A DNA stretch of 44,280 nt from a bacterium (GTDB lineage: Bacteria; Bdellovibrionota_C; UBA2361; RFPC01), in the NCBI GenBank assembly GCA_009926305.1, contig RFPC01000014.1, positions 1 through 44,280 on the forward strand, given 5' to 3'. Below, piece by piece: positions 6,213-38,897 of the stretch (within the stretch, counting starts at the first letter, position 1; each line of letters begins with the position of its first letter). The notes beneath the pieces were generated by a model. The model made no database searches. It saw only the letters and a program-made list of their open reading frames with translations, and was not told the origin of the DNA. Position numbers and translations under genes: made by a program.

Positions 6213-7051
6213 AGTCTGAAGCGCTGTAGTTCCATTCTCCGGTAGAGCTATAATGTCTGGCGCAGCGTGATCATTGGGCAGTGTGATCATTGGGCAAGGA
6301 CGGACGAAGGGTCCGGTTGGTGAACGCGTGGCGCTTTGGAAAGCCCCCGAATACAGGGCATGAAGTGGTCCGTGGGTTTGAATCCTCTATTCCTCGTCAT
6401 GAATCGACGCCTAGCGAGTATATTCGTAAAGAAATCAGTGTGTTGGTTGGGAAAGTTTATACGCTCCGGTGTTTTGGTGGCCCCGTTTTTATTTCACCCC
6501 CATCCCTCTTCTTACTTCCCTTCCTTTATTTCATATCTTTCCAAATATTTAGTGCCAGATGTTTGATTTGTCATGCCCATTTAGCTAATCTTACGCAGCT
6601 TGTCTTTTTAGTCCCATTCTGGTGGGGCGCGGTTTCTTTGTCCTTGTGGCCAAATCCACAGGGGTAAAGGTAGGGGAATTTGTAGAATCTCATGGTTCTT
6701 CGGTTTGGCTGGACACGGATGTCATTGGAAAGTTGATGATCGGCCCAGTTGGCACGAAACAAGGTGGCTTGAATTAACGGGTAGCGAGTTTCGTGCAAAA
6801 AAGCACCGAAGTTGCAATGGGAGCGGAGTTTCAACGGGAACGGGTTCTGTTTGGTAGGGCACCGCGTGTGTTAGTCGCCAGTTCTGGTGTGTGCGAGCTC
6901 GGGAAGCGAGTACAGGGCAGGAGCTGAGGTGGTGAGCAAGAATGCGCAGAGTGTCAACTCCTGCAGAGAGTAGTCCGCTACAAATGTACAGGACGAGATA
7001 TTAGAAATTAAGAACGCAACAAACGAAGGCGTCTACGAAGAATAGGAAAGT
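6213..7051. other. 839-bp non-coding or decayed insert between rplV and rpsC
   Basis: These two genes are normally adjacent. No convincing full gene is visible. Contents: a 16-bp tandem duplication (6265-6296), a TATAAT at 6249-6254 without a good -35, and a strikingly pyrimidine-rich stretch (about 6485-6560) in an otherwise purine-rich + strand. There is a stop-free + frame at 6595-6774 (from about 6613, SPILVGRGFFVLVAKSTG, later DTDVIGKLMIGPVG) with no start or family I recognise. A bulged hairpin lies around 6788-6812 (TTCGTGC, A-loop, GCACCGAA). The frame at 6290-6667 would need TTG and looks spurious. Confidence 0.6.
6265..6296 (+). repeat. 16-bp tandem duplication
   Basis: Unit GYGTGATCATTGGGCA at 6265-6280 and 6281-6296 with one mismatch (C/T at the second base). 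It lies at the beginning of the unusual rplV-rpsC gap. Confidence 0.95.
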
Positions 7052-7717
7052 ATGGGACAGAAAGTTAATCCTTTCGGAATGCGGGTTGGAGTTATTGAGA
7101 CTTGGAGGTCGCGTTGGTTTGGGACTTCACAGGATACCGCAAGATATCTTCATGAGGATCGAAAAATTCGAGATTATGTGAAGTCAAAACTTCACACAGC
7201 AGGCATACCAAATATTGAAATTGAGCGGGCCGCTGCGAAGGTGAAGATCAATATTTACTCTGCGAAGCCAGGACTGGTGATTGGTAAGAAGGGGAAAGAT
7301 ATTGAAGAGCTCCGGGGTAAGCTGAGAGCTCTCGTTCAGCGAGATGTTAGCCTGAATATCATAGAGGCGCGTAAAGCTGATATGAATGCTCAGCTTGTGG
7401 CAGAGGCGGCTGCGTTCCAGTTGTCTCGACGAGTAAACTTCAGAAGAGCGATGAAGGATGCTGTAGGGCGAGCGTTAAGAGCTGGTGCTGAAGGTATCAA
7501 GGTCAGTGTGAGCGGTCGATTGAACGGCGCCGACATCGCAAGAACCGAGCAGTACAAGGAAGGACGGATTCCTTTGCATACTCTGCGAGCCGAAATTGAT
7601 TACGGGACTGCTGAGGCCAAGACAACGTATGGCATTCTCGGAATTAAAGTCTGGATCTTTAAGGGTGAAAAGTTTGAAGAGGGTGAGCAAGTCCCTCTAG
7701 AAGCAATGCAACTATGA
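7052..7717 (+). CDS. rpsC: 30S ribosomal protein S3
   Basis: S3 (221 residues) sits at the mRNA entry site of the 30S subunit. It opens with 'MGQKVNPFGMRVGVIETW' and contains the KH type-2 motif 'GLVIGKKGKDIEELR' and C-terminal 'GRLNGADIARTEQYKEGRIPLHTLRAEIDYG'-like sequence (residues about 155-185). Downstream of the 839-bp gap, so it may need an internal promoter. Its 3' end lies in an imperfect 16-bp duplication (7705-7736). Confidence 0.97.
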   Translation: MGQKVNPFGMRVGVIETWRSRWFGTSQDTARYLHEDRKIRDYVKSKLHTAGIPNIEIERAAAKVKINIYSAKPGLVIGKKGKDIEELRGKLRALVQRDVSLNIIEARKADMNAQLVAEAAAFQLSRRVNFRRAMKDAVGRALRAGAEGIKVSVSGRLNGADIARTEQYKEGRIPLHTLRAEIDYGTAEAKTTYGILGIKVWIFKGEKFEEGEQVPLEAMQL

Positions 7718-7736
7718 AGTAATGCGACTATAGGGT
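7705..7736 (+). repeat. Imperfect 16-bp duplication across the rpsC stop
   Basis: AATGCAACTATGAAGT (7705-7720) and AATGCGACTATAGGGT (7721-7736) match at 12 of 16 positions. The first copy holds the last S3 codons and the TGA stop. A second short direct repeat, TAGGGTCTAG, follows at 7731-7740 and 7753-7762. Confidence 0.7.
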
Positions 7737-8252: not shown

Positions 8253-8284
8253 GCGGTGGCTATCATTTGCGGTGGCTATCATTT
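8253..8284 (+). repeat. Perfect 16-bp tandem duplication
   Basis: GCGGTGGCTATCATTT is repeated without mismatch at 8253-8268 and 8269-8284, in the rplP-rpmC spacer just after the rplP stop. Confidence 0.97.
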
Positions 8285-12925: not shown

Positions 12926-13126
12926 ATGAAAGAAGAGATCAAGTACGAAGGAAAAATCAGGGTAAAGCAGACGCGCAGTGCATGCCAGCGAACCCAGCGG
13001 GCGAAAGATACCTTAGCAGCTCTGGGGCTTGGAAGAATTGGTAAGGTTCAGGAGTTAGCATTTAATCCAGCGGTAGCCGGAATGGTGAAGAAAGTTCGTC
13101 ACCTTGTTTCTGTTGAAAAGATTTAA
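12926..13126 (+). CDS. rpmD: 50S ribosomal protein L30
   Basis: L30 is a small 23S rRNA-binding protein. I chose ATG 12926 (MKEEIKYEGKIRVKQTRSAC), 66 residues, with GAGGGAAAGAGAG upstream. The frame is open to a TTG at 12878, but the extra residues are not L30-like. The family core is 'IRVKQTRSACQRTQRAKDTL' and 'LGRIGKVQELAFNPAVAGMV'. The stop codon falls inside a 17-bp tandem duplication. Confidence 0.92.
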   Translation: MKEEIKYEGKIRVKQTRSACQRTQRAKDTLAALGLGRIGKVQELAFNPAVAGMVKKVRHLVSVEKI

Positions 13127-13154
13127 GTGAACAAGGAATTTAAGTGAACAATGA
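13121..13154 (+). repeat. 17-bp tandem duplication spanning the rpmD stop
   Basis: ATTTAAGTGAACAAGGA (13121-13137) and ATTTAAGTGAACAATGA (13138-13154) differ at one position. The first unit carries the last rpmD codon and TAA. Confidence 0.95.
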
Positions 13155-13305
13155 AGGGTGTCCGGAATACATTATTGTTTATTAAAGGCAAAGAGTAAGC
13201 GGAGCCTAAGAGAAGTAAAGTTAGTAACGATATTGAGTGAGAGAATCGTTTGGTTCAGCAGGGAATGGTAGACCGAGACGATTCAGTAAAGAAAAAGAGT
13301 GCACC

Positions 13306-13839
13306 ATGGCAAATGATTTAGAAAACATCGACTCCAAAGAATTGGCGCTTGAGAACTTGAGTCCAACAAAGGGTTCTCGTCACCGGAGAAAACGGATTGG
13401 TCGAGGAGAATCATCAGGTTGGGGAAAGACTGCGGGAAGAGGCAATAAAGGGCAACTCTCTCGCTCTGGAGGAAAAGTCCCTGCCTACTTTGAGGGGGGT
13501 CAGATGCCTCTCTATCGTAGAGTAGGAAAAATTGGCTTTCGCTCCCCGAAGCAGTTTATGGGTCTTAACCGATACGCACTGGTATCTCTCTCATTCCTTG
13601 ATCAGTTCGAAGATGGCACTGAAGTTACAACCGAACTTCTCAAGACGAAGGGGATAAAAATCAGTCCAAAGACACAAGCTGGTGTGAAAATCTTAGCAAA
13701 CGGTGAGATCGCGAAGAAGCTGACAGTCAAGGTTGAAGCGGTTACTGCCTCTGCACGCGAAAAAATTGAGAAAGCGGGCGGAACAGTTGAGCTGATAGCG
13801 AAGGCAGTGCCAGCAAAGAGTAGTGCCAGCAAAGAGTAG
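13306..13839 (+). CDS. rplO: 50S ribosomal protein L15 with extended tails
   Basis: L15 organises 23S rRNA late in assembly. I place the start at ATG 13306 (MANDLENIDSKELALENLSP), 177 residues; the frame extends upstream to 13237 but without L15-like sequence. The core 'LENLSPTKGSRHRRKRIGRG' and 'GRGNKGQLSRSGGKVPAYFE' are typical. Both ends are longer than in E. coli (about 144). The last residues (AKSSASKE) and the stop are encoded inside a 16-bp triplication, so the present C-terminus was shaped by repeat expansion. Confidence 0.94.
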   Translation: MANDLENIDSKELALENLSPTKGSRHRRKRIGRGESSGWGKTAGRGNKGQLSRSGGKVPAYFEGGQMPLYRRVGKIGFRSPKQFMGLNRYALVSLSFLDQFEDGTEVTTELLKTKGIKISPKTQAGVKILANGEIAKKLTVKVEAVTASAREKIEKAGGTVELIAKAVPAKSSASKE

Positions 13840-13853
13840 TGCCAGCAAAGAGC
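13806..13853 (+). repeat. 16-bp tandem triplication across the rplO stop
   Basis: AGTGCCAGCAAAGAGT occurs at 13806-13821 and 13822-13837; a third copy at 13838-13853 is identical except for its last base. The rplO TAG stop (13837-13839) is made from the junction of units two and three. Confidence 0.97.
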
Positions 13854-16769: not shown

Positions 16770-16807
16770 ACAGTCTGAATTTAAAACAGTCTGAATTTGA
16801 AACAGTT
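16770..16807 (+). repeat. 16-bp tandem duplication in the rpmJ-rpsM spacer
   Basis: ACAGTCTGAATTTAAA (16770-16785) and ACAGTCTGAATTTGAA (16786-16801), one mismatch, then a partial third copy ACAGTT. Confidence 0.95.
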
Positions 16808-24368: not shown

Positions 24369-24384
24369 AGAGCTGTGTCAGACT

Positions 24385-24454
24385 AAGGCCATGATCGTAA
24401 GGTCATGATCATAAGGCTATGATCATAAAGCTGTGATCTTAAGGCTGTGGTCAA
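24385..24454 (+). repeat. Five-unit 14-bp degenerate tandem array upstream of lptE
   Basis: Units: AAGGCCATGATCGT, AAGGTCATGATCAT, AAGGCTATGATCAT, AAAGCTGTGATCTT and AAGGCTGTGGTCAA, contiguous from 24385 to 24454. Central units contain the palindrome ATGATCAT. The array ends 16 bp before the lptE ATG. It is not a CRISPR, as there are no spacers. It may be a set of binding sites or a replication-slippage product. Confidence 0.95.
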
Positions 24455-27035: not shown

Positions 27036-27175
27036 GATGCTCCGGCTGTTATAATGATAATCCGTGGTTCATGCTCTCAAGGCGACCGTTCTTGTCAGGA
27101 GAGCGACTTTGCTTCCTTGCTGCAGCATCTCGATAGGAACCCCTAGAAAGCGCTAAGGGAAGGCACTGTTCGTTT

Positions 27176-27250
27176 AAGCTATGCACTGTTAAGCTAAGCA
27201 CTGTTAAGCTAAGCACTGTTAAGCTGTACGCTGTTAAGCTATGCTCTGTG
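27176..27250 (+). repeat. Five-unit 15-bp tandem array at the rpsT 3' end
   Basis: Units on the + strand: AAGCTATGCACTGTT, AAGCTAAGCACTGTT (twice, identical), AAGCTGTACGCTGTT and AAGCTATGCTCTGTG, covering 27176-27250. A partial unit (GGCACTGTT) precedes them. The last one to two units encode the rpsT C-terminus and its stop on the - strand. Units start AAGCT(A/G)TG, similar to those of the array at 24385. Confidence 0.96.
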
Positions 27251-27497
27251 CTTGCTGAACGAGGCGTGCAACCTTTCTGTTCGCGTTGTTCTTATGGTAG
27301 AGCCCAGAGCTCGCAGCTTTCTGGATAGCAACTTCAGCGATTTTAACAAGCTCTTGTGCTTGCGTCTTATCTTTTAACTCAATAGCAGCCTTTGCCTTCT
27401 TAATCGCAGTTCGAACTGAGGCGCGAGCGACTCTGTTTCTGTCTCGTATTTTTTGGTTTTGACGCATCCTTTTGAGCGCTGACTTATGATTTGCCAT
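27234..27497 (-). CDS. rpsT: 30S ribosomal protein S20
   Basis: S20 (87 residues) binds the 16S rRNA 5' domain. 'MANHKSALKRMRQNQKIRDR' and 'RTAIKKAKAAIE' are typical; 'LYHKNNANRKVARLVQ' is the conserved C-terminal helix. The final residues 'QSIA' and the stop lie in the 15-bp tandem array. It is a single-gene unit on the - strand between ampD and dcd. Confidence 0.96.
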   Translation of the reverse strand: MANHKSALKRMRQNQKIRDRNRVARASVRTAIKKAKAAIELKDKTQAQELVKIAEVAIQKAASSGLYHKNNANRKVARLVQQAQSIA

Positions 27498-38348: not shown

Positions 38349-38897
38349 TTGAAATTGGCAGACGAAAAAAAGGATAAGCACGCTCAGGAGCAGGATGTGG
38401 GAGAAGTAAAGATAGACAGTGCTCTCATGTTTGAGATTGAAGAGGAAGGACGACATACTTCTTCCGTTCGTCCGTTTCCAGGTCATGTAAGCGAGAGAAT
38501 TCAGCGTGCAGTGAGTCTCGCATTGAATCTCATCCCAGAAAATAATAAGCAGGCGCTCAAGAGAACCTTTTCTTTTTCTCCCCTTGTTGATTTTCTTACA
38601 AGTCAATCCTCTAGCAATCATCGCCCGTGGGTAGCCCTGACGTCTGAAGAGTCCAAGGAGGACAATCACTTGGATGCCAAGCGGGCTATTCGCGAAATCA
38701 CTCTCACAGGAGATGCGCAAGAAGGAGATGCGCAAGAATCTCCGAGCAGTGATGGAGCGACAAACCCAAATTTCCGTTTTACTCCAGCCGGAGTGCGTTC
38801 GCCCGATTCAGTAAGCCCTGAGGAATTAAACGATGCGCTCAGAGCCCTTCGCGGCTATCAAAAGCGAGCGGATAGACGAAATTCTAAGAAGAGATAG
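38349..38897 (+). CDS. Hydrophilic hypothetical protein with duplicated pentapeptide
   Basis: The 182-residue protein is charged and probably partly disordered, with no signal peptide. The only start codons before residue 27 are TTG (38349, 38355), so the start is uncertain; ATG 38427 is the alternative. 'HVSERIQRAVSLALNLIPEN' may be a helix. A 15-bp tandem duplication (38709-38738) makes GDAQEGDAQE in frame. The C-terminus is basic (GYQKRADRRNSKKR). Function unknown. Confidence 0.65.
   Translation: MKLADEKKDKHAQEQDVGEVKIDSALMFEIEEEGRHTSSVRPFPGHVSERIQRAVSLALNLIPENNKQALKRTFSFSPLVDFLTSQSSSNHRPWVALTSEESKEDNHLDAKRAIREITLTGDAQEGDAQESPSSDGATNPNFRFTPAGVRSPDSVSPEELNDALRALRGYQKRADRRNSKKR
38709..38738 (+). 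repeat. In-frame 15-bp tandem duplication
   Basis: GGAGATGCGCAAGAA is repeated exactly at 38709-38723 and 38724-38738 inside the hypothetical gene, duplicating the peptide GDAQE. Confidence 0.96.

Follow-up and report, generated by a model that had tools for sequence, protein, structure and literature searches.

The bacterial genus studied here carries many recent, unrelated tandem duplications with units of 14–18 bp, sorted by what genes can tolerate and arising, as we think probable, through a lineage-specific mutational process. The initial annotation of the window (the whole stretch of 44,280 nucleotides analysed here, one contig of a 2.99-Mb assembly in 281 contigs) had singled out tandem duplications straddling the stop codons of ribosomal genes. 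These repeats are real, but they stand among about a hundred unrelated duplications genome-wide and have no special tie to stop codons or to ribosomal genes.

Tandem arrays of the window and their age

The four ribosomal protein genes concerned, and the arrays detected by TRF over their stop codons, are as follows.

7052–7717, + strand: rpsC (S3), NCBIfam TIGR01009, family match to residue 209 of 221
7700–7731, + strand: rpsC array, 16 bp × 2.0 copies, 87%, over TGA 7715–7717
12926–13126, + strand: rpmD (L30), NCBIfam TIGR01308
13121–13155, + strand: rpmD array, 17 bp × 2.1 copies, over TAA 13124–13126, stop in the first copy
13306–13839, + strand: rplO (L15), NCBIfam TIGR01071, family match to residue 162 of 177
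13806–13852, + strand: rplO array, 16 bp × 2.9 copies, perfect, over TAG 13837–13839, frame-shifting
27234–27497, − strand: rpsT (S20), NCBIfam TIGR00029, family match to residue 82 of 87
27174–27249, − strand: rpsT array, 15 bp × 5.1 copies, 86%, over the stop 27234–27236

TRF and direct reading both place the rpmD TAA in a 17-bp duplication and the rplO TAG in a 16-bp triplication (2.9 perfect copies), as had been reported. The rpsC TGA and the rpsT stop also lie within repeats, with TRF spans of 7700–7731 and 27174–27249 compared to the 7705–7736 and 27176–27250 given originally. The rpmD protein is identical with one or two repeat copies, and S20 is 87 aa long whatever number of units is removed, an in-frame TAA being present in every 15-bp unit. 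A one-copy reading of rpsC keeps the same residue count, with TAG replacing TGA and two residues differing because the copies have diverged. In rplO, two 16-bp insertions displaced both the frame and the stop: with two units removed the gene ends in ...AKAVPAKSAEA-TAA, and the present gene ends in ...AKAVPAKSSASKE-TAG, the new TAG lying inside the array and the altered tail outside the family match. The suggestion that the C-terminal peptides of L15 and S20 are built from repeat units therefore holds for L15, the tail of which was rebuilt by the frame shift, but not for S20, where just about the last four residues are within the array.

Six more TRF arrays, with no strand assigned, are present in the window.

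2107–2142: 15-bp array, 2.4 copies, intergenic
6262–6296: 16-bp array, 2.2 copies, between rplV and rpsC
8253–8284: 16-bp perfect duplication about 10 bp past the rplP stop
16770–16806: 16-bp array, 2.3 copies, intergenic
24384–24449: 14-bp array, 4.7 copies, diverged, intergenic
38708–38738: 15-bp in-frame duplication within a gene

All 10 TRF arrays of the window (score of at least 50) have a period of 14–17 bp. A third-order Markov null, run ten times, yielded no arrays with a period of at least 12 bp, compared to eight in the window. The rplV-rpsC spacer (6213–7051) is itself long, ~840 bp against ~590 bp in the congener (G001) and ~46–49 bp in the family member G002, and none of the three ORFs scanned within it matched a protein family. 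Differing and apparently independent short duplications are found at the rplP stop or just past it in three genomes (window 8253–8284, L109 11041–11074 and L233 1689–1714, with units of 16, 18 and 14 bp, respectively).

Sites readable in G001 comprise rpsC, rpmD, rplO and the rplP spacer, while, apart from rpsT, the remaining window arrays are in spacers, in stretches whose divergence prevents alignment, or outside the G001 contig. At rpsC, rpmD and rplO this congener has ordinary gene ends without the arrays, bearing out at these three sites the possibility, raised at the outset, that the duplications postdate the divergence; at its rplP end there is another duplication, differing from that of the window. 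At the readable sites, the window arrays thus appear to be recent and not common to the closest relative.

Density in the genus and its relatives

About half of the assembly (1.53 Mb) was covered by a custom scan with a minimum pair score of 11 and low-complexity units excluded. By these rules the rpsC pair (14 of 16) falls below the cut, and the rpsT array stops short of the stop codon. Gene models came from our own dicodon score and are uncurated, with starts less certain than stops. The scan found 98 arrays of 14–18 bp units in 1,529,809 bp of this genome (G000; 64 per Mb) and 21 in 236,457 bp of G001 (89 per Mb), compared to two in 275,142 bp of three other family members (G002–G004) and none in 1.15 Mb of Markov null. 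Exact duplications follow the same division, with 51 in G000 (33.3 per Mb) and 12 in G001 (50.7 per Mb), none in the family sample, one in 366 kb of the order (2.7 per Mb) and five in a 1.34-Mb set of 80 named bacterial loci (3.7 per Mb); the two genus members differ in density from the three comparison sets with P ≤ 3.2 × 10⁻⁴ in all six comparisons.

We conclude that 14–18 bp arrays are strongly enriched in the genus, yet present at a low level elsewhere. Twenty stretches from other order members yielded seven near-exact arrays in 263 kb, and G006 had two in 103 kb, an order-level density above zero that counts against strict restriction to the genus. Long hexamer arrays occur in G004 (L179 4539–4625 and 15004–15062, 14.5 and 9.8 copies), in a sample holding no 14–18 bp arrays.

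Unit length, reading frame and stop codons

The length spectrum of exact G000 duplications has two edges, a lower one at 13–14 bp and an upper one at 18–19 bp, with 10 duplications of 10–13 bp, 51 of 14–18 bp and 8 of 19–30 bp. Non-coding units (intergenic, stop and start) have their mode at 16 bp, numbering 6, 12, 24, 10 and 13 at 14, 15, 16, 17 and 18 bp, respectively. Arrays inside predicted genes are depleted in G000 (33 observed versus 80.5 of 98 under uniform placement), and 31 of these 33 repeat a unit of 15 or 18 bp, versus 25/65 elsewhere (Fisher P = 6 × 10⁻⁸). This frame selection makes it hard to credit that the arrays are assembly errors, as the fragmentation into 281 contigs might suggest; since the 14–18 bp band also recurs in the second genus genome, we give that explanation almost no weight.

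The unit sequences appear to be mutually unrelated, and longer repeats linking contigs are few. CACTG/CAGTG is enriched in the units of G000 and G001 (17 versus 3.7 expected; 4 versus 0.85 in a later sample alone), with no fixed position at unit edges. Array boundaries showed no fixed motif either, the strongest of 32 columns being C at −4 (84/254, z = 3.8). The over-representation of CACTG is not predicted by a random-break model, and so counts against the explanation that we favor.

The reported four in about ten repeats hitting stops agrees with TRF (4/10 arrays scoring at least 50), a share with P = 4 × 10⁻⁴ versus uniform placement and 0.11 versus non-coding placement. In the scanned half of the genome, 14 of 98 arrays overlap a stop, versus 3.9 expected under uniform placement, so an excess exists by that measure; it disappears relative to non-coding DNA, where 14 of the 65 non-genic arrays overlap a stop versus 22% expected (P = 1.0). 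The custom scan recovers two of the window stop arrays versus four by TRF, and adding rpsC and rpsT brings the count outside genes to 16/66, still near 22%. The share in G001 is 5/12 versus 18% of non-coding DNA (P = 0.048, in a small sample), and in the pooled genomes 19/77 (P = 0.49). Starts are overlapped by just 1/65 of the G000 non-genic arrays, versus 18% expected (P = 7 × 10⁻⁵).

These counts support the view that the stop-codon arrays reflect tolerance, with no preference over other non-coding DNA: they occur at stops because a stop region, like other non-coding DNA, can usually take a further copy without harm to the protein. When the duplicated segment contains the stop, the new copy comes after it, and added copies therefore become 3′ UTR. 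For 19 of the 21 stop arrays of G000 and G001 (units of 13–20 bp), the start of the stop codon falls within the first copy or at its border. Collapsed to the last copy, 9/21 read differently; in two of these (rplO and L116 6195) the stop lies outside the first unit, and the remaining seven are read as divergence between copies. The idea that 3′ ends tolerate insertions because a stop is recreated is thus upheld as to tolerance, the share at stops being that expected of non-coding DNA, but not as to re-creation, since mostly the first copy keeps the stop.

The other proposal of the initial annotation, that duplications are promoted by transcription or translation termination or by RNA ends, now looks very unlikely. 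Weak signals in its favor remain, namely the excess over uniform placement, the G001 share, a lean of arrays in co-directional spacers toward the upstream stop (KS P = 0.054), an array density about twice as high in convergent spacers, and the differing arrays at or after the rplP stop in three genomes. However, the share at stops equals expectation both in G000 and in the pooled genomes, and a 3′ lean would be left equally by selection on promoters and start regions. A stop-specific mechanism was rejected, there being no excess over non-coding DNA.

Origin of the duplications and comparison with known systems

Among 38 exact two-copy pairs from both genomes, 18 have no junction homology, compared to 21.4 expected if none were required, and 9 have 4–8 bp of extra homology, compared to 0.9 expected. 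Ordinary replication slippage between short direct repeats, running faster in this genus, would fit the latter excess, as well as the enrichment of direct 5-mer repeats around the units and the 45/98 arrays with 2.5 copies or more. It is nevertheless somewhat unlikely as the source of the duplications, given the 18 pairs lacking homology, a lower length edge that slippage would not be expected to produce besides the upper one, and a MutS family match in both genus members. We count the nine homologous pairs against our preferred explanation, as slippage may start some duplications, unless a third copy was partly lost; the enriched direct 5-mers weigh against it too. A mixture is likely, in which most pairs are homology-independent and some stem from slippage or are remnants of longer arrays. 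Inverted and same-strand complementary repeats were not enriched around the units.

Narrow unit lengths and the many homology-free junctions would also fit the scars of a mobile element, namely target-site duplications that persist after its precise excision, but we consider this highly improbable. Direct repeats of 14–18 bp enclosing 101–400 or 2501–5000 bp are not in excess; those enclosing 401–2500 bp are (35 versus 17), but other genomes show an excess no smaller (99 versus 37). The 1.53 Mb contain nine repeat pairs of at least 60 bp and no dispersed many-copy element, with the caveat that assemblies break at multi-copy elements, and no Cas1-type integrase was matched in either genus member. 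Insertion scars were rejected, as intact insertions between matching repeats were not conspicuous.

Ku was found in neither of the two genus members and in 1 of 24 genomes searched, and neither member has a family match to Piwi or Cas1. Both members carry family matches to PolA 5′ nuclease, MutS and RNase HII, and the loss of any of these as a cause was accordingly rejected. An ATP-dependent ligase is matched in both members and in other genera too, and we found no genus-specific gene for cutting or joining, a point against our explanation.

We suggest that a lineage-specific mutational process would generate units spanning roughly 1.5 helical turns, and that, judging by unit length and junctions, the initiating event would probably be staggered breaks or paired nicks ~16 nt apart. 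The ends would be filled in and then rejoined without Ku, and some arrays may later have been enlarged by ordinary slippage. The distribution of the arrays tracks gene tolerance, with multiples of three in genes, any length in spacers or over stops, and starts nearly excluded. A duplication just upstream of a stop, as in rplO, shifts the frame, and the tail ends at a nearby stop. A more specific version, which we put forward as a doubtful speculation, is a Ku-independent process with a built-in ruler of ~16 bp, in which an enzyme pair or dimer, perhaps favoring CAGTG, nicks both strands, followed by fill-in and ligation.

The stop-codon aspect, taken alone, is ordinary. The wider interest is that one genome shows tolerance shaping where small duplications survive, and that a bacterial lineage with a sharp insertion length opens the birth, rather than the growth, of tandem repeats to study. 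Searches of an open-access library listed no description of a bacterial genus with a band of 14–18 bp duplications. Related work on plants is reported under the term 'patch-mediated'. Small tandem duplications at mammalian DNA breaks are described as arising when staggered complementary ends are filled in and then joined, a route requiring Ku80 and CST with Pol alpha-primase (PMC8355091); the fill-in idea is alike, but Ku is absent here (0/2 genus members). De novo two-copy duplications are outlined for the bacterial beta-lactamase gene penA, some bordered by direct repeats and others, without them, tied to same-strand complementary sequences (PMC4169377), which, unlike there, are unenriched here (30% versus 41% of control windows).

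The nearest described case is that of the tandem repeats of Borgs, archaeal linear extrachromosomal elements, with example units of 18–36 nt, a strong A bias and frequent flanking partial repeats, and rare in host genomes by the account in PMC9879509. As in the present genus, the arrays described there are pervasive, recent, independently arisen and rare in compared genomes, and their units are divisible by three within ORFs (31/33 here) and mostly not in intergenic regions (PMC9879509). Set against the A bias of Borg units, unit GC here is 0.469 versus 0.462 for the sample, a figure that covers GC content alone. Unlike the Borg repeats of that account, those studied here lie on bacterial contigs with ribosomal operons (L15, L30, S3, S20), and keep to a narrow band of 14–18 bp, mostly in two copies.
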